Positions 13,038 to 51,406 of a DNA stretch of 64,000 nt are shown here, piece after piece (the first letter of the stretch is position 1; the number at the start of each line of letters is the position of its first letter). The position numbers and the translations under genes are program-made. The stretch covers positions 1 through 64,000 of the forward strand of contig CANCXM010000001.1 in assembly GCA_947381945.1 (NCBI GenBank), in the 5' to 3' direction. The notes under the pieces are model-generated. The model was not told the DNA's origin. It did no database searches and worked only from the letters and a program-made list of their open reading frames with translations. This DNA is from an uncultured Muribaculaceae bacterium (GTDB taxonomy: Bacteria; Bacteroidota; Bacteroidia; Bacteroidales; Muribaculaceae).

Positions 13038-13110
13038 GCGGCAGTAGCTCAGTTGGTAGAGCATCAGCTTCCCAAGCTGAGGGTCGCGAGTTCGAGCCTC
13101 GTTTGCCGCT
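13038..13110 (+). tRNA. tRNA-Gly (CCC)
   Basis: A complete 73-nt cloverleaf without encoded CCA. The acceptor stem GCGGCAG pairs with TTGCCGC (one G-T pair), the D-arm is GCTCAGTTGGTAGAGC, the anticodon stem TCAGC/GCTGA encloses loop TTCCCAA with anticodon CCC, and the T-arm is GCGAGTTCGAGCCTCGT. It reads GGG glycine codons. An AT-rich accessory island starts right after its terminator, but I found no second copy of the tRNA 3' end to mark an attachment site. Confidence 0.96.
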
Positions 13111-13111
13111 C

Positions 13112-13163
13112 AAAGCCGGCCTCATCATCAAACCCGCGCGGTTGATGGCGAGGCCGGCTTTTT
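13112..13163 (+). terminator. Rho-independent terminator after tRNA-Gly
   Basis: GCCGGCCTC (13115-13123) pairs with GAGGCCGGC (13150-13158), enclosing a further stem ATCAA/TTGAT, and is followed by TTTTT. It begins two bases after the tRNA. Confidence 0.88.
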
Positions 13164-13188
13164 ACGCTGATATGTCAAATTTTTAATG

Positions 13189-13196
13189 TATCTTTG
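13189..13196 (+). promoter_or_regulatory. -7 promoter box before the KilA-N remnant
   Basis: TATCTTTG matches TAnnTTTG about 28 bases before ATG 13224. It overlaps a TTG at 13194 that would otherwise extend the frame, which argues for the ATG start. Confidence 0.55.
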
Positions 13197-13223
13197 CCTT
13201 TGAAATTAAATGCTTATCCCCAA

Positions 13224-13529
13224 ATGGCAAAAATCACCGTCCAAAATACTCCAATTACTGTTTTCGACATCGAGGAGCAGGACTATATCCATCTTATGGA
13301 CATGGCAACTGCCAAAGATGGAGACAGCAGGGCTGCGGATGTTATCAAGAACTGGATCAGGAATAGATACACCATTGAGTTTCTTGGTACATGGGAACTT
13401 ATCCACAACCCTAATTTCAAAGTGGTCGAATTTGACCACTTTAGAATGAGTGCCGGTTTGCCATCATTTGTATTAAGTGCCTCAGAATGGATAGAGAGAA
13501 CCGGTGCAATAGGACTACCACAATCATAG
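13224..13529 (+). pseudogene. Truncated KilA-N domain protein
   Basis: About 101 residues covering the KilA-N DNA-binding domain common in Bacteroidales mobile DNA: MAKITVQNTPITVFDIEEQD, then IKNWIRNRYTIEFLGTWELI, FKVVEFDHFRMSAGLPSFVL and SASEWIERTGAIGL. Family members normally continue for well over 200 residues with more conserved sequence; here the frame ends abruptly in PQS and a stop, and the continuation is absent downstream. It is therefore a 3'-deleted remnant. KilA-N proteins are phage-related and often lie near defence or toxin genes, consistent with the genes that follow. Confidence 0.75.
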
Positions 13530-13620
13530 CGACTTATCAAACCCAACCAAATCGCCATCCATCAGATGAGCGTGTTGGAGAGTAGTGATAAAGACCGAAA
13601 ACTTTGAAATAAATCTCACG

Positions 13621-14091
13621 ATGATAAAATATATAGAGAAAGGTGATATATTCAATATCAGTGGCGTAAGTAGCTATGCCCACGGATGCAACTGTGCCGG
13701 AGCTATGGGCAAAGGAATTGCCTTGCAATTTCGTAGCAAATACCCGGAAATGTATTCGGAATATAAAACAATGTGCAAGGATGGGATTTACAAGCCAGGT
13801 GATGTTTTCGATTACAATTATGGAGACGGACACATATACAACCTTGGCACACAGGCAACATGGAGAACAAAAGCACGGATAGAATATATAGAGCGGTCGG
13901 TTAAAGCAATGCTTGAATTGGCTGAGAGAGAAAATGTGACAAAAATCGCTCTCCCTGCGATTGGCGCCGGATTGGGTGGCTTGAAATGGGATGATGTGAA
14001 AGATGTTCTGAATAGAGTGTCTGCCGATTATCCAACCATCGAGTTATATGTTGTGGAAACCTATCAAAGCAACATCCCCATCTCCGAATAA
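13621..14091 (+). CDS. Macrodomain (ADP-ribose-binding/hydrolase) protein
   Basis: A 156-residue single macrodomain. Key parts are IEKGDIFNISGVSSYAHGCN (N-terminal strand and first loop), AGAMGKGIALQF (ADP-ribose-binding glycine loop), GHIYNLGTQATWRTKARIE, and IALPAIGAGLGGLKWDDVKD (second loop). The GxMGKGIAxxF and P-x-IGxGxGGLxW pattern resembles the DarG/TARG1/ALC1 branch, which removes ADP-ribose from protein or DNA. No DarT-type toxin is adjacent. It is followed after 40 bases by an ADP-ribosylglycohydrolase. GTG 13585 would extend the frame, but ATG 13621 starts the family alignment. Confidence 0.88.
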   Translation: MIKYIEKGDIFNISGVSSYAHGCNCAGAMGKGIALQFRSKYPEMYSEYKTMCKDGIYKPGDVFDYNYGDGHIYNLGTQATWRTKARIEYIERSVKAMLELAERENVTKIALPAIGAGLGGLKWDDVKDVLNRVSADYPTIELYVVETYQSNIPISE

Positions 14092-14131
14092 TTGGATTCA
14101 AAGGACTCTATATTTAAATGGAAAATGAAAT

Positions 14132-15064
14132 ATGAAGTCACAAGTTATAGATAGAATATTCGGTTGTCTTTTCGGTCAAGCTATAGGTGATGCTCTTGGG
14201 CTTGGAAGTGAGTTTATGGATAAGAAGGAAGTGAAGAAATATTATCCTGATAAACTTAAGAGATATGACCAAATAATACAGGATGGGCATCGTATTAGAT
14301 GGAACATAGGAGCGTGGACTGATGATACAGATATGATGCTATGTTTAATGGATGCCTTTAATAATGGTGGCTTTCTCTATGAACGTGCGGCGCATAATTT
14401 TAAGACTTGGTTTAATGGGATTCCAATGGGTATTGGCCGACATGTTGCTAAAGTCCTTTGTTGCTCGGATTATGAGGACGCCCCGTTTGAAGCATCAAAG
14501 ATAATGTGGATCTCCACTAAATGTAATTGTGCAGCCAATGGCGCGTTGATGAGAACTTCCATTATGGGTCTTTGGAAGGAATATAATAGGGACTGGGTTG
14601 AGCAGGCATGTACACTTACACATTATGACCCTCGTTGTATTTTATCTTGCCATATAGCGTCGTTCATTATAAACCAATTGGTATGGCATAGCCGTTTACT
14701 TTCTGTTGATGAGGTGTTGTCTATGACTGCCGATGCGGAACTTGCAAGCTACATTAAATTAGCTTATGATAGTCCAAATATTAGCGATTTGGAATTGGCT
14801 AAACAACCGGGAATTGGATATACATATCGTACATTATGTGCGGCATTGTGGTGTTATTGGCATTCAGATTCATTTGAATCAGGCTTGATTGATATTGTTA
14901 ATGAAGGTGGCGATGCTGATACTAATGCTGCTATTGCCTGTGCAATCCTTGGAGCCAGATTTGGTTATAATTCAATTCCTATATATTATGTTAATAATTT
15001 ACACAGAAGTGATTATTATATGAATCGGTGCAATGATTTTGTCAAAATTGTGCTGGGTAGTTGA
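14132..15064 (+). CDS. ADP-ribosylglycohydrolase (ARH/DraG family)
   Basis: A 310-residue all-helical dinuclear-magnesium hydrolase that cleaves ADP-ribose from modified targets. The metal-binding signatures are visible: GCLFGQAIGDALGLGSEFMD at the start, WTDDTDMMLCLMDA (first acidic cluster), CNCAANGALMRTS in the middle, and EGGDADTNAAIACAILGARFG near residue 260 (second cluster). Sequence is AT-rich compared with the housekeeping genes around it. With the macrodomain gene upstream it forms a pair of ADP-ribose-removing enzymes. The target modification is unknown. Confidence 0.9.
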   Translation: MKSQVIDRIFGCLFGQAIGDALGLGSEFMDKKEVKKYYPDKLKRYDQIIQDGHRIRWNIGAWTDDTDMMLCLMDAFNNGGFLYERAAHNFKTWFNGIPMGIGRHVAKVLCCSDYEDAPFEASKIMWISTKCNCAANGALMRTSIMGLWKEYNRDWVEQACTLTHYDPRCILSCHIASFIINQLVWHSRLLSVDEVLSMTADAELASYIKLAYDSPNISDLELAKQPGIGYTYRTLCAALWCYWHSDSFESGLIDIVNEGGDADTNAAIACAILGARFGYNSIPIYYVNNLHRSDYYMNRCNDFVKIVLGS

Positions 15065-21819: not shown

Positions 21820-22980
21820 ATGTTAAAAAGAGTCATAATTGATAATTATAAATCCATCCGTCATGCCGAGATTGATTTCGGCAGGATTAATATTCTTATT
21901 GGAGAAAATGGTGCGGGAAAAAGCAACCTGTGTTCATTTTTTGAATTGGCTCAGGTCGGTTCGCACGGTATGAATCAATACATTCATACCCATTTGGGAA
22001 TGGGTAGAATCCTTCATGGAGGTTCAAGAAAATCACGGAGACTTTCAGGGCAATTGCTCTTTGCAGGCACTACAAATAGCGATGATAAATTAAATGAACA
22101 GGGCAATACTGCCTATTCGATTGAAATCGGGATTGCTATTGATGGCACGACACCAGTTGTACTGGAGGAAGCCCAATATGTCCGCATTCCTGAAGGTTCC
22201 GGGATAGAAGCGGGTGAGAAATCACTTTTGGGTGGAGTTGCCGAGGACGAGGAACTGCGGCAGCTTAATGTTGGTATGGTAGCTGAAAGCAACCCCGGCT
22301 TTTTGTCTGCTGTTGGTAGAGTTCGTTTTATTAAAGTCCCTATAAATTCAATTTCTATATTCCATTTCTCGGATACAGGAGACGGTGCGGAAATCCGGAG
22401 CAAGGTGAGCCTGGATGACAATGCCGAACTGAAGAAAAATGGCGGGAATCTTGCAGCGATACTCTATCTTATCAAGGAGAAGGATCCGCAGGCTTTCCGA
22501 TTGATAGAGTCTATGATGCGCAGGGTCGCTCCATATTTTAAATGCTTTGACCTTAAGCCCGACAGGTTGAATCCAAACCTTATCACTATAGAATGGAAGG
22601 AACTGGATTCGGAAGTATATCTTGATTCCACATCTTTTTCAGACGGCACAATAAGGTTTCTGGCTCTTTCTGTGCTCCTTTTGCAACCCAATCCTCCGAA
22701 GACAATAGTCATTGATGAACCTGAACTTGGATTGCATCCTGCTGCTATCTCCATGCTTGCCGGACTTATCCGCAGGGCCTCCCATAAATCTCAGATAATA
22801 GTGGCGACGCAATCACCTGATTTGCTTAGTGAATTCTCACTCAATGATGTGATTGTTGTTGACAGGAGGGATGGTCAGTCAACATTCAACCGTTTTGACG
22901 AAGAGACATTCAAGGAATGGCTTAGCGAGTATTCGGTCGGAGAACTCTGGAAGAAAAATCTTATAGGAGGACAGCCATGA
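21820..22980 (+). CDS. OLD/RecF-like AAA ATPase
   Basis: A 386-residue ABC-class ATPase of the AAA_15/AAA_21 group. Walker A is LIGENGAGKSN near residue 33, Walker B is TIVIDEPELGLHP near 303, with a degenerate signature in TSFSDGTIRFLALSVLL and a switch region VATQSPDLLSEF. This is the ATPase part of OLD-family proteins but without the C-terminal TOPRIM domain; that role may be filled by the next gene, whose start overlaps this stop in an ATGA. The pair resembles split ATPase/nuclease anti-phage systems. The start follows a 110-nt leader from a -7 box. Confidence 0.88.
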   Translation: MLKRVIIDNYKSIRHAEIDFGRINILIGENGAGKSNLCSFFELAQVGSHGMNQYIHTHLGMGRILHGGSRKSRRLSGQLLFAGTTNSDDKLNEQGNTAYSIEIGIAIDGTTPVVLEEAQYVRIPEGSGIEAGEKSLLGGVAEDEELRQLNVGMVAESNPGFLSAVGRVRFIKVPINSISIFHFSDTGDGAEIRSKVSLDDNAELKKNGGNLAAILYLIKEKDPQAFRLIESMMRRVAPYFKCFDLKPDRLNPNLITIEWKELDSEVYLDSTSFSDGTIRFLALSVLLLQPNPPKTIVIDEPELGLHPAAISMLAGLIRRASHKSQIIVATQSPDLLSEFSLNDVIVVDRRDGQSTFNRFDEETFKEWLSEYSVGELWKKNLIGGQP

Positions 22981-23645
22981 AAAGATTGGATATAATAGTA
23001 GAAGGATACTCCGAACGTGAGTTTATTTCAGAGGTGTTTGCTCCGTATCTTGAAAGTCACGGAATCATAGATGCATATAATGTCTCTCCTATAATGGTGA
23101 GGACCAATCCGAATCATAGGGGTGGTGCCACTTCATATACTCAGATTAAGTCCGACATCCGTAGGGCGCTTCATTCTGCCAATCAGCGTCTTGTAGTGTC
23201 GATGCTGATTGATTTTTTCGGTCGCCCTTCAAATCTTCCTTCATTAGATAGATCGGTTAAGCCTGTAAGCGACTATGAGATGGCGGATGCAATCGAGGCT
23301 GCTATTGCAGACGATATAGGTGATTCACGCTTTATCCCATATCTGCAGATGCACGAATTTGAAGCATTCCTGTTTGTATCTACGAAAGGCTTTGAGTATT
23401 GCTATAATGGTAATGCTGTTGGCTATCAGAAATTTAAAAGCATAATTGAAGAGTATGAGAATCCGGAGGATATAAACACCACTCCTGCCGGTGCCCCGTC
23501 AAAACGCATATTGTCGATTATTCCTGATTATGATAAGGTTATACATGGGAATACCATCATCATGGAGAACGGCTTGGATATGATTCTTGCAAAATGTCCG
23601 CGGTTCAGAGCTTGGGTTGACAAGTTGGTTGAAAAATTGTCATGA
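22977..23645 (+). CDS. DUF4276 protein, predicted TOPRIM-like partner of the ATPase
   Basis: A 222-residue protein matching DUF4276. The start KRLDIIVEGYSEREFISEVF has the TOPRIM-like E-G-x-S/T-E pattern, and VVSMLIDFFGRPSNLPSLD supplies an acidic strand end followed by glycine. A further conserved block is YLQMHEFEAFLFVSTKGFEY, with SKRILSIIPDYDKVIHGN toward the end. TOPRIM-type folds in OLD and related systems act as metal-dependent nucleases; that activity here is inferred. The 4-base overlap with the ATPase gene implies coupled expression and a shared complex. Confidence 0.82.
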   Translation: MKRLDIIVEGYSEREFISEVFAPYLESHGIIDAYNVSPIMVRTNPNHRGGATSYTQIKSDIRRALHSANQRLVVSMLIDFFGRPSNLPSLDRSVKPVSDYEMADAIEAAIADDIGDSRFIPYLQMHEFEAFLFVSTKGFEYCYNGNAVGYQKFKSIIEEYENPEDINTTPAGAPSKRILSIIPDYDKVIHGNTIIMENGLDMILAKCPRFRAWVDKLVEKLS

Positions 23646-29555: not shown

Positions 29556-29650
29556 ATACACCCCTAATATCCTTCAGATACAAAATGCTCTATTGCGCTG
29601 GAGGAAGGGTACATAAAGACAGAAGGTCAGAAGAAACAAAAGATTTTTGA

Positions 29651-29671
29651 CCTATATGTCAGATTTTTTCG
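29651..29671. repeat. 21-base repeat, left copy (pairs with 35585-35605)
   Basis: Starts CCTATATGTCAG and ends TTTTTTCG; 20 of 21 bases match the copy at 35585. The two copies bracket the AT-rich island holding the RhuM remnants and the GTPase operon. They could mark insertion boundaries or simply be a common intergenic word. Confidence 0.5.
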
Positions 29672-29696: not shown

Positions 29697-29743
29697 AGAA
29701 GTGGTTTATCGCAATCTTTAACAGCGATAAACCACTTCTTTTT
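29697..29743 (+). terminator. Strong terminator downstream of copA
   Basis: A perfect 16-bp stem, AGAAGTGGTTTATCGC (29697-29712) with GCGATAAACCACTTCT (29724-29739), loop of 11, followed by TTTTCC. The last codons of the RhuM remnant on the other strand lie inside it. Confidence 0.85.
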
Positions 29744-30001
29744 CCTTTAACACCTTATTGGCCCATTGACGGAACTGTGTGCCCCTAAAAGACTTCACCC
29801 TATATCCGACAGATATTATAACGTCAAGACTATAATATTTAGTCCTGTACCGTTTGCCGTCTGCGGCAGTTGTCAAGTAATACTTGACAACTGTATTGCG
29901 CTGTAACTCGCCTTCTTGAATATATTATTGATATGAAGGCTTATATTTTTATTTTGCTTAGTTGATTGAAACAAATCTACCATCTGAGCCTCATTAAGCC
30001 A
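29718..30001 (-). pseudogene. RhuM-family remnant, copy B (frameshifted)
   Basis: The minus strand encodes LNEAQMVDLFQS, ISLHINNIF in one frame, then, after loss of one base near 29935, QEGELQRNTVVKYYLTTAAD, DVIISVGYRVKSFRGTQFRQ and WANKVLKEKE in the next frame. This is the conserved N-terminal block of RhuM/virulence-type proteins, which are common beside toxin-antitoxin and restriction genes in Bacteroidales. The frameshift and absence of the rest of the protein mark it as dead. It abuts a second remnant upstream. Confidence 0.75.
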
Positions 30002-30218
30002 TAAACACCTTATTCGCCCACAGACGGAACAATATAGCATTAATACTGTTAACTTGGTAGCCAACAGATAGAATTATATCAGGATTATAAAATTTAGTTT
30101 GGTGATTTTTACCGTCTACAGCAGTATGTTCCAAAATGGAACATACTGAATCCACATCTGTCTTTCCTGATTTAAATATGTTGGATAAGTGTTTTGTCAA
30201 TAGTTCGGTAAAAACGAA
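29994..30218 (-). pseudogene. RhuM-family remnant, copy A (fragment)
   Basis: A 60- to 70-codon fragment with KHLSNIFKSGKTDVDSVCSI, then KFYNPDIILSVGYQVNSINA and FRLWANKVF, paralogous to copy B immediately downstream. It has no proper start codon (preceded in frame by FVFTELL and a stop) and ends right after WANKVF where copy B begins. The two were probably tandem or fused genes, now decayed. Confidence 0.65.
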
Positions 30219-30235: not shown

Positions 30236-31432
30236 TTACCAATATTTACCAGCAATAATCTTACCGTCATACATTAACACTACATAATAATATTGAGAAG
30301 TGTCCAATGTCCGGTGAAAGTCAAGAGACTCTTCTCCTCCACCTTTATAAAAGGTTAAGGTGTGATTATTTGATAAGATCTCAGAATTGTTACTGTTGAC
30401 AGCTTTAAGAGTTATTGTTATATCTTTCTCCTCATCACAATAATACTTAAACTTGTATCGGCTTGAATTTACTTCACTTTCTGTTACAATGAATGGATAT
30501 GCGCTACAAATGTTCTCTAATTTATCATTCAGTTCAGACTTTTCTCTTCTAACTTGTTGCAGCGAATTTTCTAAATTTGAGATGGAATCTTTCAAATTGG
30601 AGATACGCTCATTTCTATTGTCAATTATCAAATTTTTTTCTTTAATGGTATCATTAGCTGCATCTAATTCATACTGTGTATTATTCAGATTTTCATATAG
30701 AAAATATATACCCATTCCACATGCAACAACTGTGAGAAATAGAAAAATAACATTCTTAAATTGTTTCTTTTGGCGTAAAATCTGTTTGTTGGTTTCCTTT
30801 AATTTCTCAACCTCCTTTGATAAGGATTCATTTTGTGCATTTAATTGTTTAAGTGTGTTTCTATAACTCGTAGAACGAATGGTGTCGTAGTTTTCTTGCT
30901 TAAGGATTACAGTGAATCCATAAGTATAAGATGATTTTACGATTTCACTATTATTATCGTTTTCATTGAAAAGTTTTTGAGATTTAATCGAGACAGTATA
31001 ATCTGCTTGAGGAATTTTTTTTACTATTTTAATTGATGATATTTCATTATGAAGATAATTAGCATATCCCATCACCTCCTCCTCTTCCTTCATAAGAGAA
31101 GATAAAGAAGTCACTATATCACCATTTTTCGAATAATTGATAATGACACCGCGCTCAGCAAGTTGTTCTATTTGCTTTTCAAATAATGGAAATAAAGGAC
31201 TAACTTGCGTAAAATAATATCCATTTATTGCAACTGCTAATCCAATATATCTTTTTATGTCTATTTTTCGAATATATACATAATACATCATACTCTCATC
31301 TCTATGAATTATCATCTGAGATGGGGCATTGCATTTAGAATATATTAATTTAAAAAGATTTGAAGAACTATCTTCGGGATATTGGGAGTAACCTTCCGAC
31401 AATTCTCCAAAAATATAGGTTGAGCAATTCAC
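30236..31432 (-). CDS. Coiled-coil membrane protein, last gene of the GTPase operon
   Basis: I do not recognise a named family with certainty. The 398-residue product has an N-terminal globular domain (1-180; NCSTYIFGELSEGYSQYPED, RYIGLAVAINGYYF), a coiled coil at 192-225, one membrane helix at about 227-246 (NVIFLFLTVVACGMGIYFLY), a second coiled coil at 250-306, and a C-terminal beta domain (ITITLKAVNSNNSEILSN, QYYYVVLMYDGKIIAGKYW). This mirrors the 498-residue protein of the same operon, suggesting diverged paralogues. The large cytoplasmic head with an opening like Y-x-x-G-x-x-x-G recalls GTPase-associated GAP1-N-type domains, which is only a hypothesis. It lies 4 bases after the retropepsin gene. 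Confidence 0.82.
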   Translation of the reverse strand: MNCSTYIFGELSEGYSQYPEDSSSNLFKLIYSKCNAPSQMIIHRDESMMYYVYIRKIDIKRYIGLAVAINGYYFTQVSPLFPLFEKQIEQLAERGVIINYSKNGDIVTSLSSLMKEEEEVMGYANYLHNEISSIKIVKKIPQADYTVSIKSQKLFNENDNNSEIVKSSYTYGFTVILKQENYDTIRSTSYRNTLKQLNAQNESLSKEVEKLKETNKQILRQKKQFKNVIFLFLTVVACGMGIYFLYENLNNTQYELDAANDTIKEKNLIIDNRNERISNLKDSISNLENSLQQVRREKSELNDKLENICSAYPFIVTESEVNSSRYKFKYYCDEEKDITITLKAVNSNNSEILSNNHTLTFYKGGGEESLDFHRTLDTSQYYYVVLMYDGKIIAGKYW

Positions 31433-31436
31433 TGTT

Positions 31437-31943
31437 TTATTTCTTATTAAAGTTTATTGTCTTTGCTATATTATCAACTTCAACAGATGCCAGTTCATCA
31501 AGAACCGCATTACCAAGTAATATTGGTGCGACCTGATTCAGAGCAACGCTTGCAGTTTTATTCTCAAGAACGATACCATCTTCACCTCCTATTTCTATAC
31601 GCTTTATGTTGATGGTACCATTCTCTACGATAGAGCCATCGGCAATTGTAGCATACGAGGCATCTAAAATATCGCTCCCATCAAGTTTGCCATTCTTTGC
31701 AAGAGTTTGGACTTCATTTAATGAAAGATGAATACCGGAACACCCAGTATCATATATCATATTCATTGTTATTCCGTTCAATTTGACCGGTATGGTTTTT
31801 ACACCACCTATTTCCTCATAAGGAATAGAAATGGCCTCTGATGTTTGCTCATCAAGGTTATAGGGTGGTTTGTTTGACTTCTTATCACATGACGCGAATA
31901 ATATAATAGACAAACTTAAAAATATTAAATGATATTTTGCCAT
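31437..31943 (-). CDS. Retropepsin-like aspartic protease lipoprotein
   Basis: A 168-residue lipoprotein (lipobox SIILFASC, Cys 19) with a single retropepsin-type domain of clan AA. The catalytic signature is MNMIYDTGCSGIHLSLNEV (DTG at 65-67, with Cys inserted before Ser); the flap-like strand is SYATIADGSIVENGTINIKR, and the second conserved element is APILLGNAVLDEL. Single-domain members work as dimers. Anchored on the outer face of a membrane, it could cleave the extracytoplasmic domains of the two coiled-coil membrane proteins encoded on either side; that substrate assignment is inference. Gaps to both neighbours are under 5 bases. Confidence 0.85.
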   Translation of the reverse strand: MAKYHLIFLSLSIILFASCDKKSNKPPYNLDEQTSEAISIPYEEIGGVKTIPVKLNGITMNMIYDTGCSGIHLSLNEVQTLAKNGKLDGSDILDASYATIADGSIVENGTINIKRIEIGGEDGIVLENKTASVALNQVAPILLGNAVLDELASVEVDNIAKTINFNKK

Positions 31944-31944
31944 T

Positions 31945-33441
31945 TTATTTAATCACTTTTAGGGTTCGATTCAATACAACTCTCCCATCAACAACATAAT
32001 CAACTCGAACATTTGTTCCAGTGGCTGTTTCAGTAGGTAATATAAACTTATTATCTTTGTTAATTGGTTGGTCACGGCTATCTATCCATACCAACCATTG
32101 TCCTCGCGGAACATTTGCTGCAGTAAAATCCTTCTTTTGCACTTTCAGAGTATAATTCCTACTGTTTACGATTGTGTCACCTCCTCCAACAATATTTATA
32201 AGACAGGAATCCCAAGAGTCATGATTATTCGTGTTAGTACCTGATTCTGCATTTGCATCGAGGGGAGTCGAAGCACTATTTGCTTCAGTGGCTTCATTAT
32301 CAGATTTTGGTGTAACAACTGCATCCGAAGGTTCTGTCAATCTTCCATTGGAATTGATATTAGCAAAATTCGGTTTCAGGGCTACAAAATATAGAATAAC
32401 AAGACAAAGAGCAATAATAATAGCAAGTAATATACTATTAAGCCTTGAAGTCCGTATTGTCTTTGAATATTTCGCATGAGATTTTTTTGAAGATTCCATA
32501 TATTCATCAAAATCCTTCTTAGCGTTCTCAGGAAATCGACCCGCCAGAAGGCGGGTAAGCTTCTGAAACGGTTTATCCATGAGATCTATTGAAGACCTTG
32601 CATCTTCAATTTTAGTTTTAAGCTCATCTCGTTCCTGATATGTAGCTTTTAAATCAGATTTAAGCTGATTAATTATAGAAGAATATTTCTTTTCCGATGC
32701 AGAAGCGGAAGTATGAAGTTGCTTGGTAAGGCTTTGATTTTCTTTTAACAACAATGAATTCTCAGATTGCAATTGAGAATTGGAAGATTCAAGGGACTTC
32801 TTTTGTGAGATTACAGAATTGAGCTGCTTGGAAATCGTTTGATTTACTATGGATGCAGGTTCGAGGTTTGGTAATACTACAATTGATTGTTTTTTGAAAT
32901 AATCAAAAAACAAAGGGCTATCAACTTCAATGAGGCTATACTGCTTTTTTTCCTTGTTGAATGTGTCAGGCACATTTCCTAGAGGTGAAATAAAGGGGGC
33001 GATTAATTCTGCGATGTTTTTGACAAAGATTGCATGAATCTTATCGACAGTAGCACTATTCCCTGAACGAGATGACTCAAAATCTGAAACAAGGAATATT
33101 TCTTTATTTTGTTTCTGTGCTATAAGACTACCAACACAAACCTTACTATAAACTGTCTCAAAAATTTGATACAGTTTATATACATTAGTACAGAAAGACC
33201 TTGGGAAACAGACTGTCATGGCGAAGAATGATCCGGGTCTTCCATTGGAATCATATACCTCTTGTTGGCGAATATATGTGTAATAAGAATCTCCCATGCA
33301 TATATCTATCTGCATAGCGGCTTTATCCGCAATATTTGAATCATGATTATAAAAAGTATCGATATAATCGTGATTCTTATCGCTACCCCAAATTTGGTGC
33401 CCTTTTGGAGTGCCATGTAAGTATAAATCAAATGTACTCAT
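31945..33441 (-). CDS. Coiled-coil membrane protein, third gene of the GTPase operon
   Basis: A 498-residue protein of no family I can name with confidence. Residues 1-185 form a globular domain (MSTFDLYLHGTPKGHQIWG, then FFAMTVCFPRSFCTNVYKLY); 198-290 is a long coiled coil rich in S, Q, K and E; 334-356 is a membrane helix (NSILLAIIIALCLVILYFVA); then an acidic S/T/N-rich linker to about 410 and a C-terminal beta domain (VVNSRNYTL-like strands, PRGQWLVWIDSRDQPINKD). The order head, coiled coil, helix, beta domain repeats in the 398-residue protein. The N-terminus resembles the G-x-x-x-GH opening of GAP1-N domains of GTPase-associated conflict systems; this needs profile searching. Confidence 0.82.
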   Translation of the reverse strand: MSTFDLYLHGTPKGHQIWGSDKNHDYIDTFYNHDSNIADKAAMQIDICMGDSYYTYIRQQEVYDSNGRPGSFFAMTVCFPRSFCTNVYKLYQIFETVYSKVCVGSLIAQKQNKEIFLVSDFESSRSGNSATVDKIHAIFVKNIAELIAPFISPLGNVPDTFNKEKKQYSLIEVDSPLFFDYFKKQSIVVLPNLEPASIVNQTISKQLNSVISQKKSLESSNSQLQSENSLLLKENQSLTKQLHTSASASEKKYSSIINQLKSDLKATYQERDELKTKIEDARSSIDLMDKPFQKLTRLLAGRFPENAKKDFDEYMESSKKSHAKYSKTIRTSRLNSILLAIIIALCLVILYFVALKPNFANINSNGRLTEPSDAVVTPKSDNEATEANSASTPLDANAESGTNTNNHDSWDSCLINIVGGGDTIVNSRNYTLKVQKKDFTAANVPRGQWLVWIDSRDQPINKDNKFILPTETATGTNVRVDYVVDGRVVLNRTLKVIK

Positions 33442-33442
33442 C

Positions 33443-34357
33443 TTATCCTTTTATACATTTCATGAGTTGATTCCAAAGAAGTTTTGGATACATCTCCTCG
33501 CTTTCATTGTATTTAGGCTTTCCTCCCACCTGCTTAGTATAATATCCTGTGCAGAAAGGAACAAACCGATAGTTATATCGACGCCATAGACTTGTTATAG
33601 GATTGGGGTTTTTGAATATCGATGAAAGACCTTCGTATTCGTCCTTCATTGCCTTTTCGGCAGAAGATACATGGAGTTTACCATCTTCAAATAGTTCTTC
33701 TTTCTGATCTACTTTGTTGTATAAAATTACAACACGGTCAGAGTTACGAAGAAGTTGATGCTTGCAGTTGCGGATACGACCTACATACGAATCCTTGACA
33801 GAAGCATGAACATTCCATTCTGCTTCTGTAATATATACCCATATTTTCCTGTTGGGTAGATTACGTATGATTTGAGTCAAGTATGGACGGAAATTTCTCG
33901 CGCTTATTTCTTCCGGTTTCTTCGGATTGAAATAATGTTCGCCGGGGGCCTCAAGTATTTGGCAGACAGTTGTTCCGTGATTAATTACCTTAACCATCAA
34001 AAACTCATTAAGTGCATTGCCGAGAAGTGCCTCTGTTGTATTGAGGTTTTTGTGAAATTTCGCACATCTTTCTTCATATGTATCATCAGCCTTGAATGTT
34101 TTATCTGCCTTTACGGTATAACCCAATTTACGCAGATAACGGGCCAAGCGTACGAGAGTCATAGACTTACCGCTTGTGGGGGGACCAAATAACATAACTA
34201 TTGGAGCTTTCTTATCTCCAATCTTAATGTCATCCTCGTCAATAACGGATGTTGTGTTGGAGTCCTCATTTACAGCATCATCGGATACTGTATCTATTGT
34301 GGGAATTGTTTCTTCTCCGATGTTGATATCATCAACATTTAAATCTATATCTTTCAT
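33443..34357 (-). CDS. TRAFAC-like GTPase
   Basis: A 304-residue soluble nucleotide-binding protein. A disordered acidic N-terminus (1-48) precedes the G domain: P-loop LFGPPTSGKSMTLVRL (G1, residues 58-65), a switch/G3 equivalent CQILEAPGEHYF at 133-144 where Glu replaces the usual Asp of D-x-x-G, and G4 VILYNKVDQKEE (NKVD 214-217). A conserved-looking block RPYLTQIIRNLPNRKIWVYI precedes G4. This fits the bacterial GTPase groups used in multi-gene conflict systems more than translation or division GTPases. It overlaps nothing but is 1 base from the next gene and 4 bases from the previous one, so it is co-transcribed with the membrane components. Confidence 0.85.
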   Translation of the reverse strand: MKDIDLNVDDINIGEETIPTIDTVSDDAVNEDSNTTSVIDEDDIKIGDKKAPIVMLFGPPTSGKSMTLVRLARYLRKLGYTVKADKTFKADDTYEERCAKFHKNLNTTEALLGNALNEFLMVKVINHGTTVCQILEAPGEHYFNPKKPEEISARNFRPYLTQIIRNLPNRKIWVYITEAEWNVHASVKDSYVGRIRNCKHQLLRNSDRVVILYNKVDQKEELFEDGKLHVSSAEKAMKDEYEGLSSIFKNPNPITSLWRRYNYRFVPFCTGYYTKQVGGKPKYNESEEMYPKLLWNQLMKCIKG

Positions 34358-34361
34358 AATT

Positions 34362-35408
34362 TCAATCGTTTTTATTCATGAATGCAATGTCAAAGAATAT
34401 GAATGCAGCAATATCCACAAGTATTGATAAGATAACATAGTACCAAAAGGAACCTGGATATTTACCACTAAGGAAATCAACGAAAAATACATCGATTACA
34501 GATGCTATTCGTTTTGTACGCGTCTCTCCATTTTCTTTCGTGTATATCTGCTCATCCTCTGAGTTCTTGTCAAATTGTACAAATGTCTTATTATTTGATA
34601 CTATATTATATCCATCCTTTAACTCTTTTTCACACTGTCGAATCTCATCTTCATTAAGGCTTGCAGATGCAACATGATCTTGTATAGAGTCGTTAAGTGC
34701 GGACAGTCGTTTAATTTGTTTCCTTGCAGCTTGAACTGACTGTTCTGAGATGGTATGAGTTCTTAATGCGTGTGATAAAGCCTTATTTATTTCAACTTGA
34801 TAACCGTTTAGGATTGTCGGGTCTTGACTATTATAACGAGGATCCTGTTGAATACTTGAATTTAACGTCTTGTTAATTATTTCAAGATGTTCTCCAATTT
34901 TTTTACCGTTTCCACGCTTAAAGGGAGCTTCATCGCCATTAAATTGAGCCACAATGTGCCGACGTTGTTCCTCTACGGCATCTTTCATCTTTTTCCCTTC
35001 TTCATCTAAAACCATTGTGGAGGAGGTACCCATATCAACAACTTGTTGTAGATACTTATTGGTGGTCTTTATGTCCTCAGATATCGTTGACCCAATCTTA
35101 TCATTATAGAAGAAAGTATGTGTGTTCGTTGGCATACTCATAATCAGCCAAAAAAACACAACAAGCAGTATGCCACCCCATAATTTTCCCTTTCGGTTAT
35201 CAATGAAATCATTGGAGAAAAGAGAATCTGCAATCATCTTCGTGCCGATTGATGCGACCACAAAGAAGGCAATAGTAATACCCCACACTAACACTTCTGG
35301 CCATCCGGCAGGAAGAAGCAGGTGTAAGGATTTTTCGGTTGCCCAACAACTTATTCCAGCAAGAATAAGAAAGGCGAGGCTACAGCCAATTACACGAAAC
35401 TTGTTCAT
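34362..35408 (-). CDS. Four-helix membrane protein, first gene of the GTPase operon
   Basis: A 348-residue integral membrane protein without a family I recognise. Three helices lie in the first 95 residues (VIGCSLAFLILAGISCWA, VLVWGITIAFFVVASIGTKM, WGGILLVVFFWLIMSM) and one at about 319-343 (WYYVILSILVDIAAFIFFDI). Between them is a soluble region of about 220 residues, mostly helical (NTLNSSI-type and QSVQAARKQIKRLSALNDS stretches), likely extracytoplasmic. It is the first gene of five closely spaced genes and is followed by the GTPase gene after 4 bases. It may form the membrane pore or sensor of the system, which is inference. Confidence 0.8.
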   Translation of the reverse strand: MNKFRVIGCSLAFLILAGISCWATEKSLHLLLPAGWPEVLVWGITIAFFVVASIGTKMIADSLFSNDFIDNRKGKLWGGILLVVFFWLIMSMPTNTHTFFYNDKIGSTISEDIKTTNKYLQQVVDMGTSSTMVLDEEGKKMKDAVEEQRRHIVAQFNGDEAPFKRGNGKKIGEHLEIINKTLNSSIQQDPRYNSQDPTILNGYQVEINKALSHALRTHTISEQSVQAARKQIKRLSALNDSIQDHVASASLNEDEIRQCEKELKDGYNIVSNNKTFVQFDKNSEDEQIYTKENGETRTKRIASVIDVFFVDFLSGKYPGSFWYYVILSILVDIAAFIFFDIAFMNKND

Positions 35409-35452
35409 CTTTTTAGTTGGTTTATTATTATTGTTTATACAAATTGTTGTAC

Positions 35453-35481
35453 AACTCTTGGCAAGAGATTTGGATGACTGC
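35453..35481. repeat. 29-base direct repeat, copy 1, with 13-bp palindrome
   Basis: Begins AACTCTTGGCAAGAGATTTG and ends GATGACTGC; matches 35627-35655 at 28 of 29 bases. The sole difference is the centre base of palindrome CTCTTG-G-CAAGAG. It lies 45 bases upstream of the GTPase operon start, so it could be an operator or a recombination site. Confidence 0.75.
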
Positions 35482-35584
35482 GTATGTGTATGTATAACAG
35501 CTGCTTAATTATAAAACAATAGAATAATCGCTAACCAAAATAAAAAATAATGAATAAAATGATAGAAAAGTTTGTTGCTGATGC

Positions 35585-35605
35585 CCTATATATCAGATTT
35601 TTTCG
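35585..35605. repeat. 21-base repeat, right copy (pairs with 29651-29671)
   Basis: Begins CCTATATATCAG and ends TTTTTTCG, one mismatch from the left copy. It is followed directly by an isolated TACTTTTG -7-like box (35606-35613) with no gene behind it. Confidence 0.5.
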
Positions 35606-35626
35606 TACTTTTGCAATTGGTTAAGT

Positions 35627-35655
35627 AACTCTTGCCAAGAGATTTGGATGACTGC
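35627..35655. repeat. 29-base direct repeat, copy 2, with 13-bp palindrome
   Basis: Second copy of the element at 35453, here with centre C (CTCTTG-C-CAAGAG). It lies just beyond the terminator of the degenerate integrase gene, the usual place of a phage-type attachment site. Weaker similarity extends about 20 bases further upstream in both copies. Confidence 0.75.
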
Positions 35656-49698: not shown

Positions 49699-50307
49699 CT
49701 ACTCGATATACCATCCAGAAATTTGTAGATAACAGCGCTCCTCTGGCCATGCGCCCTTACCATCAAACCAATTAGCCAAGGAAATTCTTACGATTGAACC
49801 AGCCGGAATTCGTGCGATAGCAGGTAATAAACCAACATACTTAATTTTTAAACCACGATAAAGGTAATAGTCCTTTTCAAACGATACTATATGAGTCAGA
49901 CTATCATCGGGAATCCAAAACTGGGTACTAAAACCAGGAACTCGATCTTTTGTTATGTAGATTCTGGATTGAAGGCAACCCTCAAAAGTACCATTTAAAG
50001 AACCTGAGTATAGACGAGATCCCAGATTATGATTTCTTACATATTCAATAATACCCTGAGTACCAACATTACCTAGTTTTCTAATTGGGGATGTTTGCTT
50101 ATCCTCAACATGGGGTGCTTCTCTAACATTCCATGCAGTTTCAACTGACAGATCCCAACGATCACCTATCTCGTATGGGGCATCTTCTTTTAGGTTGCCT
50201 CCACGTTCATTGTGTAGACGGATTAATTCTCCAGTATATTCATTTATACCGCCGACACATACACCATTTGCCATTTTTGTTTTAGAAACAATAAGTACAG
50301 TTGTCAT
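49699..50307 (-). CDS. Dual OB-like domain protein, third gene of the DUF488 cassette
   Basis: A 202-residue soluble protein opening MTTVLIVSKTKMANGVCVGG, INEYTGELIRLHNERGG, followed by beta-rich sequence (YEIGDRWDLSVETAWNVREA, VRISLANWFDGKGAWPEERC, YLQISGWYIE). I relate it tentatively to the dual OB-fold family, in which similar openings occur; OB folds bind nucleic acids or nucleotides. No catalytic motif is evident. It starts 6 bases after the second DUF488 gene on the same strand and is surely in the same transcript. Confidence 0.72.
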   Translation of the reverse strand: MTTVLIVSKTKMANGVCVGGINEYTGELIRLHNERGGNLKEDAPYEIGDRWDLSVETAWNVREAPHVEDKQTSPIRKLGNVGTQGIIEYVRNHNLGSRLYSGSLNGTFEGCLQSRIYITKDRVPGFSTQFWIPDDSLTHIVSFEKDYYLYRGLKIKYVGLLPAIARIPAGSIVRISLANWFDGKGAWPEERCYLQISGWYIE

Positions 50308-50313
50308 AAGATT

Positions 50314-50796
50314 CTAAAGATTAATTATTTTACAATCAAGTATTTCCGCTAGTTTATTGGCGACTAATGATCGGTGGCAAGCTGTTGCATGCTCCTCTAC
50401 GCAGAAGAACACGATGTTCTCTGCACCACTATTACTTAGCTCATTTGCCAGTTCCTGTAGGTTATATGGGGCTAAGATTTGTTTAATATATTCAGATTTA
50501 AAAACGGAACCAAGCGTAGTTCTCTGTTTTTTAGTTTCGCCATTTGCTTTATCGGCATCTTTTTGTTTTTGACGAATATCATTTGTAGGTGCCAGCTCTT
50601 TTATATATCTATATCCAATGCCGAGATCTTGCAACTTAGATTGAAGGTAATTGCTATTTACGTATTTATATTGAGAACCACGCACACCTCGACGTTGACG
50701 AATGTCGCAAAAGAGATCTATTTTATTCTCTTGAAGTTTACCAAAGTAAGACTCTTCAGTGGAGTTATAGACTCCAATAGTGTAAATTTTAATCAT
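50314..50796 (-). CDS. DUF488 family protein, second of pair
   Basis: About 160 residues from ATG 50796. The Rossmann-like DUF488 pattern is present: IKIYTIGVYNSTEESYFGKL, DLFCDIRQRRGVRGSQYKYV, GIGYRYIKELAPTNDIR and the C-terminal VFFCVEEHATACHRSLVANK, containing the C-x-E-x5-C-H-R signature. The frame continues upstream to 50892, but that part overlaps the previous gene, so the ATG that overlaps its end by eight bases is chosen. It differs strongly from the first DUF488 protein and has a helical insertion rich in K and Q (QKQKDADKANGETKKQRTTL). Function of DUF488 proteins is not established. Confidence 0.85.
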   Translation of the reverse strand: MIKIYTIGVYNSTEESYFGKLQENKIDLFCDIRQRRGVRGSQYKYVNSNYLQSKLQDLGIGYRYIKELAPTNDIRQKQKDADKANGETKKQRTTLGSVFKSEYIKQILAPYNLQELANELSNSGAENIVFFCVEEHATACHRSLVANKLAEILDCKIINL

Positions 50797-51406
50797 ATGG
50801 GTTATAAGTTTCTTCGGATGTATCAGTAAGATTTTTATATGACTTGCGAGATTTAAAAAATGGCGGTTCACATGGGCCAAATAAATTTCCATCAGGTTCC
50901 CATAAGCCTTTGGTTAAAGTTTTCATAATTTCTTCTTGACTTATGGTTTTGTTAATGGCAATAATATGGTTCATAGAAATATTATGGAGGAAGTAGAGTT
51001 CTCTGCCAATAAGTTTGCTCCGATGGCATTCTGAAGGGTCGGATTCACTACACATAATTGCCACTCTGCACTTTTTATTATTAGCATCCACCAGCCTATT
51101 AAGCCCAATCTTGAAAGTAGGTTCTTCTGCCATCATACGATAATCAAAATAACCTTCTTCATCGTAGCAAATATCATTTAGAGGTCGCCCTCCGATATAA
51201 TCTCCCATATAAACATATCTAACACTTTCTTGTTTTAGCCATCTTTCAATTATCCCCTGATTGAAATGATTAACCCATTTAGAGTATGGACTACTCCTAA
51301 CATCAACAAGAAAATGTATGTCAAAAGACCTGAGTTCGGAAATGAACTCCTCTTGAGTTTTCTGACCGTGACCGATTGAGTATAGAGATGAATTACTTCG
51401 TACCAT
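50789..51406 (-). CDS. DUF488 family protein, first of pair
   Basis: A 205-residue protein matching DUF488: SLYSIGHGQKTQEEFISELR, FLVDVRSSPYSKWVNHFNQG, VRYVYMGDYIGGRPLNDICY and AIMCSESDPSECHRSKLIGR with the C-x-E-x5-C-H-R signature. The conserved Asp-Val-Arg strand and the Cys/His cluster suggest an enzyme active site, but no activity is established for the family. The C-terminal 40 residues extend beyond the domain. It begins about six bases after the predicted transcription start of a full promoter and is translated first in the three-gene cassette. Confidence 0.87.
   Translation of the reverse strand: MVRSNSSLYSIGHGQKTQEEFISELRSFDIHFLVDVRSSPYSKWVNHFNQGIIERWLKQESVRYVYMGDYIGGRPLNDICYDEEGYFDYRMMAEEPTFKIGLNRLVDANNKKCRVAIMCSESDPSECHRSKLIGRELYFLHNISMNHIIAINKTISQEEIMKTLTKGLWEPDGNLFGPCEPPFFKSRKSYKNLTDTSEETYNPYD

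Follow-up and report, generated by a model that had tools for sequence, protein, structure and literature searches.

A recurrent five-gene operon of Bacteroidales with a P-loop GTPase: a possible membrane switch with predicted longin-type regulators

What would a GTPase do in an operon whose other products all appear to be attached to a membrane, and do these genes belong together at all? The question is raised by positions 30236-35408 of the first 64,000 nucleotides of contig CANCXM010000001.1 (assembly GCA_947381945.1), from an uncultured Muribaculaceae bacterium; this whole stretch is called the window below. Five open reading frames (ORFs) lie there on the minus strand and are named, in transcription order, TM, GTP, CC1, PEP and CC2 (Table 1). 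An earlier note, made from the sequence alone, had read them as a linked membrane GTPase system with genes 1 to 4 bases apart; the coordinates given at first were confirmed, and the gaps are 4, 1, 1 and 4 bases. We conclude that the five genes are a recurrent linked unit, beyond chance. To the reading that this cassette is a membrane GTPase switch, in which two paired single-pass membrane proteins, their heads predicted to be longins, would control the P-loop GTPase, we give an even chance.

Gene order in 73 loci

With an alignment of 25 GTPase sequences we found 72 loci in genome contigs, which together with the window make 73. By record title the 72 are chiefly Bacteroidales, with one Flavobacteriaceae, one Dyadobacter and three metagenome-assembled genomes titled Firmicutes groups. 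Iterated profiles run over the ORFs of the 73 loci detected GTP in all of them, TM in 72, CC1 in 69, CC2 in 69 and PEP in 51. (After iteration the CC1 and CC2 profiles match each other, and each ORF was given the label of the better-scoring profile; in L038 and L039 the CC1/CC2 labels upstream are probably coiled-coil artefacts.) The TM gene stands immediately upstream of GTP in 69 loci and a CC gene follows GTP directly in 68, so that this survey of gene neighbourhoods bears out the linkage that the earlier note had claimed. The exact order of the window, TM-GTP-CC1-PEP-CC2, occurs in 33/73 loci; seven loci (L041 counted) have one additional gene between CC1 and PEP, nine have TM-GTP-CC1-CC2, and the remaining ones differ, some of them through contig ends. 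As for the protease as a core component, the claim holds in part: PEP lies within the same gene run in 49/73 loci, but it is weakened by the nine loci with the order TM-GTP-CC1-CC2 and no PEP.

L060 was considered as a companion locus and proved to be a false one, as its GTPase domain belongs to a protein of 619 aa (amino acids) in a different setting. In that protein (L060:6900-8759) the GTPase relative stands behind an N-terminal stretch resembling calcineurin-type phosphoesterases, and restriction-modification-like genes adjoin it (both by eye).

Prediction and a hydropathy scan agree on four membrane helices in TM, none in GTP, one in CC1, an N-terminal signal-like stretch in PEP and one helix in CC2. 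Among the Pfam and NCBIfam matches listed, only PEP reaches a curated cut-off, TM, GTP, CC1 and CC2 staying below it. The start codon of CC2 is GTG, and the same start, with MN, is found in most aligned relatives. The perfect palindrome CTCTTGSCAAGAG occurs in two near-identical sites (35453-35476 and 35627-35650) and nowhere else in the window; the repeat copies that bear it, upstream of gene 1, are candidate operators or regulatory sites.

Table 1. Features of the operon and of the segment around it (positions in the window)
Feature	Position	Strand	Description
Gene 1, TM	34362-35408	-	348 aa, four predicted membrane helices
Gene 2, GTP	33443-34357	-	304-aa P-loop GTPase, relative of DO-GTPases
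Gene 3, CC1	31945-33441	-	498 aa, predicted longin head, coiled coil, one membrane helix, Ig-like beta domain
Gene 4, PEP	31437-31943	-	168-aa retropepsin-like (clan AA) aspartic protease, predicted lipoprotein
Gene 5, CC2	30236-31432	-	398 aa, head paralogous to CC1 head, one membrane helix, variable C-terminal domain
RhuM-family fragments, two, inside the bounded segment	29718-30200	-	Pfam
47-nt repeat, two copies, 81% identical, with palindrome CTCTTGSCAAGAG	35435-35655		Upstream of gene 1
Direct repeat, left copy, 24 bp	29648-29671		Bounds the segment
Direct repeat, right copy, 24 bp	35582-35605		22/24 identical to left copy

The GTPase and the paired heads

In the window GTP has the motifs G1 GPPTSGKS, Walker-B/G3 LEAPGE, with a glutamate at the G3 position, and G4 NKVD, as had been noticed at the outset. 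Counting one main GTPase per locus (72 loci, the window in and L060 out), we found E-x-x-G-E in 72/72, G1 in 71/72 and NKxD in 62/72. A conserved Walker-B glutamate, together with a regulator, GAP1, encoded downstream, defines the DO-GTPases (excerpts of PMC7159879). The window GTP has no match to the Pfam DO-GTPase models (PF19975 / PF19993) up to E 5, and the GTPase of L073 scores 19.3 bits, under the cut-off of 27. Four intermediate or bridge operons, retrieved with these Pfam models, do reach them at 27.1-34.8 bits (L118, L119 and L120 at 34.8, 27.1 and 31.6 bits; the DO-GTPase2 of L121 at 33.2 bits). The L121 protein is the best match to the GTP profile, at 52.5 against a maximum of 39.5 among 33 P-loop controls; L118, L119 and L120 score 40.4, 36.1 and 35.0 against the main GTPase set, and only L118 passes the control, narrowly. 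The TM proteins of these three operons are related to the window TM (56.7, 66.4 and 47.9, with a maximum of 32.2 among 18 controls), a gene behind the DO-GTPase occupies the place of the head protein in each, and the L120 operon ends with a retropepsin-like lipoprotein (by eye). The four-TM protein of L121 gave no match to the TM profile.

Direct membership of the DO-GTPases was rejected. An alignment of six DO-type proteins reached 91-95% with the GTP profile, and its signal came from L121, itself an intermediate; the five DO-type proteins of L078, L079 and L122 did not rise above the best of the 33 controls. We call the window GTPase a relative of DO-GTPases and not a member because it misses the Pfam models which the intermediates L118-L121 reach. 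Hence the kinship suggested earlier stands through these intermediates, as judged by profile comparison, while a direct one does not. Searched against the sequences of solved structures, the GTPase profile matched SRP54/FtsY, replication factor C and a few further proteins over short P-loop stretches. Two of the bridge operons deserve a mention of their own: L121 (5643-9811), in which the DO-GTPase2 stands behind a repeat-like N-terminal region and the head protein, 600 aa long, has an RPG motif, may represent a further branch of this design, and in L118 (2-5101) the operon of a 4-TM protein and a DO-GTPase directly follows a long YD-repeat ORF (Rhs-like, by eye).

The two proteins that would act on this GTPase are built alike. 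CC1 consists of a predicted longin head (about residues 1-150), a coiled coil (about 196-300), a membrane helix (about 337-355) and an Ig-like beta domain (about 407-498); CC2 has a head, a membrane helix at about 228-246 with coiled coil on both sides of it, and a variable C-terminal domain. The two heads are paralogous by profile comparison, which with the membrane prediction supports the early description of two related proteins of head, coiled coil, single helix and C-terminal domain. Structures were predicted for CC1 and for GAP1: the CC1 head is predicted to have a longin fold, and the CC2 head would share it by profile homology to the CC1 head. The head profiles found no longin, and nothing credible, among PDB sequences, nor does a longin appear in the Pfam listings, which comprise 23 families for CC1 and the best 25 of 37 for CC2. 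That the match to longins reflects merely a common alpha/beta sandwich, in an ordinary accessory operon of Bacteroidales for envelope maintenance where no regulator acts on the GTPase, seems to us quite unlikely.

Arg68 of CC1, in the loop before strand 5, is invariant in 38/38 aligned heads (38 of the 75 ORFs labelled CC1); one CC1-labelled protein outside this set, the second in L049, has a histidine instead. CC2 has no counterpart of this arginine loop in the profile alignment, and has an invariant arginine of its own, Arg44 (33/33). NPRL2 Arg78 and FLCN Arg164 lie in analogous longin loops, in one subunit of each heterodimer, although the solved complexes show them well away from the nucleotide (excerpts of PMC7464330). 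By this parallel, Arg68 is a possible catalytic arginine. The heads of CC1 and CC2 would then form a heterodimer binding the GTPase, as NPRL2-NPRL3 and FLCN-FNIP do on Rag GTPases, with CC1 supplying the catalytic arginine and CC2 going without one.

One may ask whether this is instead a bona fide GAP1/DO-GTPase system, CC1 and CC2 being shortened GAP1 proteins. The order of the genes is the one expected, since in the 68 loci mentioned above the head gene lies directly downstream of the GTPase. GAP1-N1 also has an arginine just before strand 5 (R74, 40/40). In the predicted models CC1 and GAP1 agree in the succession of elements as far as the helix that follows strand 5, and both find longin or DENN structural neighbours, the N+M model of GAP1 most resembling a DENN module. 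The sequences, however, do not join the two families. With hhalign, the CC1, CC2, combined and bridge heads gave probabilities below 5% against 37 GAP1-N1 proteins; CC1 heads with bridges scored 15.2, within 100 shuffled-column decoys (95% of them up to 16.8, maximum 18.8). Six bridges together scored 19.6 and two bridge heads singly 20.9 and 20.4, just above that maximum though without decoys of their own. (Of the bridge head proteins, those of L119 and L121 match CC1 heads at 74% and 56%, those of L118 and L120 below 2%.) The Pfam listings mentioned above (23 families for CC1, the best 25 of 37 for CC2) contain no GAP1 family, GAP1-N2 being compared through Pfam only. Nor does CC1 follow the three-domain N-M-C plan: its head is succeeded by a coiled coil, a membrane helix and an Ig-like domain, with no GAP1-M or GAP1-C region. 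We therefore rejected GAP1-N membership on sequence, the earlier idea in this sense being unsupported, and regard shortened GAP1 proteins as an unlikely explanation. If GAP1 is a longin plus a DENN-like part, as its model has it, this would suggest a role as GTPase-activating protein (GAP) or guanine-nucleotide exchange factor for a protein of unknown activity.

Envelope-side domains, protease and membrane partner

Beyond the membrane helix, CC1 and CC2 have 112 tails of more than 40 residues, which fall into 49 single-linkage clusters (the largest of 33 and 19; 39 singletons); 19 of the 131 CC-labelled ORFs stayed outside this clustering, 8 with no membrane helix found and 11 with tails of at most 40 residues. 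The C-termini are thus hypervariable on a conserved core. One tail (L072) has a LysM domain by Pfam, and further tails are MORN-repeat-like or SH3-like (by eye only). In the switch that we propose, these domains would be periplasmic and would sense or bind ligands on the envelope side, and they would be freely swapped for that reason. The direction could also be the opposite one: the state of the GTPase would drive the longin heads, and these the periplasmic domains and the protease, for instance in peptidoglycan remodelling or in regulation of the outer membrane. The wall-associated LysM domain would agree with this, as would the fact that the GTPase and its 4-TM partner are the most constant parts, and a bacterial GTPase with a longin-related regulator is known in MglA-MglB (excerpts of PMC10933270 and PMC8336837). 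The envelope-side domains are, however, carried by the regulators and not by the GTPase, and they are the fastest to change, so that ligand sensing suits them better than a fixed output. We hold this inside-out scheme to be rather improbable.

PEP matches the Pfam family gag-asp_proteas (PF13975) at 33.4 bits, for a cut-off of 28.2, and in the window it has the catalytic motif DTGCS as well as LLLGN. The catalytic aspartate is kept in 49/49 proteins, as D-T/S-G in 46, D-P-G in two and D-T-A in one. A lipobox is found by regular expression in 37/49, most of the other 12 showing a cysteine after a signal-like helix; PEP is accordingly predicted to be a lipoprotein, in agreement with the early reading. 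That reading had also placed the protease at the surface, which is not supported: residues +2 to +6 after the lipobox cysteine (37 proteins) comprise 57 basic and 29 acidic ones. In Bacteroidetes, the signals for surface export abound in Asp/Glu, an example being SDDDD of B. fragilis (excerpts of PMC5080379). A periplasmic facing is likelier than the surface because the residues following the cysteine are basic, unlike these acidic signals. PEP would trim or cut the outer domains of CC1 and CC2, or some substrate close by, to provide an input or a reset, and would be dispensable in some versions of the cassette. L049 has no gene labelled PEP but has a 536-aa lipoprotein-like one (L049:13107-14717) with a fervidolysin-type prodomain by Pfam and a GTSFAAP stretch like the serine motif of subtilases. 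This suggests that proteolysis matters, whichever enzyme performs it.

In TM about 230 residues separate helices 3 and 4, predicted to be periplasmic from the charge pattern. Invariant in 34 rows of the alignment are N95 and H97 (N-x-H/N, end of helix 3) and D332 (helix 4), and likewise S20, S27, G166 and F336; N-x-H/N and the aspartate of helix 4 recur in the TM proteins of L072, L073, L118, L119 and L120 (by eye). Such a polar set in membrane helices hints at passage of ions or protons. DUF4407 was rejected as the family of TM (2/34 members match, best E 0.013). The 4-TM protein would be the near-constant membrane partner of the GTPase and its likeliest output, because of the conserved aspartate and Asn/His in the membrane. 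The whole would work from the outside inwards: a ligand or a trimming event in the periplasm would be relayed by the coiled coils to the longin pair, which would set the nucleotide state of the GTPase and through it the 4-TM output. Envelope stress, phage adsorption and attack by rivals are candidate purposes.

Acquisition, the defence question and known systems

The GTPase was found in 2/61 genomes, that of the window itself and a second from its genus, and across the order in 5/295, three of them strongly (own genome counted). That of the window is 88% identical to a protein from a record named Parabacteroides distasonis, 40% to the other match of the same genus and 36% to that of another P. 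distasonis strain (L025). The operon lies in an AT-rich segment of 5.96 kb (GC 0.35, the genes 0.30-0.39, the whole window 0.49), which also encloses the two RhuM fragments (Pfam, 42.6 bits at 29994-30200 and 60.5 bits at 29718-29870) and is bounded by a 24-bp direct repeat. The 20-bp core of the repeat occurs twice in the whole 3.15-Mb genome at up to 2 mismatches. From its sequence, the bounding repeat is the pattern left by a site-specific insertion. Of 49 loci only the window itself has it, and in 27 genomes of the same genus no empty site could be demonstrated with the core, which outside the window's own genome has only matches with 2-3 mismatches, in several genomes about as many as the control. 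The gene of the left flank has a 74%-identical copy in one genome (G020), which is without a close orthologue of the right-flank gene. No copy of the cassette was found in 72,556 plasmid or 50,697 phage records, nor by pattern in viral contigs. The unit is patchy. It is probably acquired, as had been proposed, and its AT-rich setting beside RhuM remnants was also seen correctly.

Where a RhuM fragment ends, a short way inside the left boundary of the segment, there is a perfect, terminator-like 16-nt inverted repeat (29697-29739). Elsewhere in the window, genes for a macro-domain protein and an ADP-ribosylglycohydrolase lie in an AT-rich stretch behind a tRNA-Gly (13038-15064), possibly an ADP-ribose conflict island; the gene of an AAA_21 (AbiEii-like) ATPase shares four bases with a 222-aa gene (21820-23645), possibly an ATPase-partner pair; and a DuOB-domain protein and two DUF488 proteins form an AT-rich group (49699-51406), whose low GC resembles that of acquired DNA.

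A compact, patchy, laterally moved cassette in an AT-rich segment beside RhuM fragments recalls phage defence or conflict systems, and the earlier note had suggested such a role. The variable periplasmic domains would sense infection or attack, the GTPase would set a threshold, and the 4-TM protein or the protease would kill or arrest the cell. The GTPase has its kin among DO-GTPases, and hypervariable tails on a conserved core resemble the variable effectors of GTPase-centred conflict systems (excerpts of PMC7159879). Some neighbours of the operon match candidate-defence or toxin-antitoxin-like families (SoFic, PDC-S01, PDC-S04, HipA). Against this, none of the five proteins has a full-length match to a known anti-phage system in PADLOC-DB 2.0.0, which has no curated cut-offs, the best of its weak matches being mad8 (2.5e-6, GTP residues 42-78, P-loop only) and LmuB (2.7e-5, a CC2 stretch with coiled coils), and a toxin-like domain was not recognised in them. 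We compared the nearest protein of 130-900 aa on each side, where the contig allowed (109 chosen, the head gene L072:8844-9899 left out), with more distant ones, a few kilobases away (65 chosen, of which two that belonged to the first set were dropped): 28 PADLOC families appear among the 108 near proteins and 37 among the 63 further ones, so that there is no local enrichment, and among the matches listed no family matches more than 3 of the 108. The absence from plasmid, phage and viral records weighs in the same sense. A defence role is possible, not demonstrated, and we are inclined to doubt it.

With rather less than even confidence, we suggest that bacteria possess transmembrane longin heterodimers, whose outer parts are envelope-side sensors and whose inner part, a GATOR1/FLCN-like GAP, acts on a DO-type GTPase; that the same logic would hold in GAP1 conflict systems; and that the longin/DENN-GTPase regulation of eukaryotic endomembranes would have a diverse bacterial counterpart in mobile envelope-guarding cassettes. 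If true, a bacterial operon would offer a direct, genetically tractable test of how longin-type regulators come together and pass a signal through a membrane. The cassette seems amenable to deletion and reconstitution: it is small and self-contained, and both a Bacteroides fragilis genome (L009) and Bacteroides luti (L036) carry it. Roadblock/longin families are thought to be archaeal in origin, roadblocks being only sporadic in bacteria (excerpts of PMC10933270).

Among known systems, NPRL2-NPRL3 (GATOR1) and FLCN-FNIP likewise have two paralogous longin domains, one of them with a loop arginine, and a GTPase at a membrane (excerpts of PMC7464330). They differ in being eukaryotic, and no sequence similarity was detected. 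They are not known to have a coiled coil with a single membrane helix. PEP is like other clan AA retropepsin-like proteases (PF13975 / PF13650), whose curated cut-offs it passes and whose DTG and LLLGN motifs it has, and unlike them in being a predicted lipoprotein within a GTPase operon. TagF (PDB 9t0n, 6iz8), a type VI secretion protein, is also among the closest known systems. MglA-MglB shares a bacterial GTPase and a longin-related regulator with the window; MglB is a roadblock homodimer, whereas the regulators described here span the membrane and have envelope-side domains (excerpts of PMC10933270 and PMC8336837). Closest in plan are the DO-GTPase/GAP1 conflict systems (Kaur et al. 2020, excerpts of PMC7159879), which likewise have the Walker-B glutamate, a downstream regulator gene, frequent membrane association, variable C-terminal domains and patchy mobile neighbourhoods, and to whose Pfam cut-offs our intermediate operons reach; longins, DENN and retropepsins are unmentioned in the main text of that paper. 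The window differs from them in that GAP1-M/C is missing and its heads are undetectable as GAP1-N by sequence, and it has for its own a dedicated 4-TM protein, two single-pass proteins of predicted longin type and a retropepsin lipoprotein.

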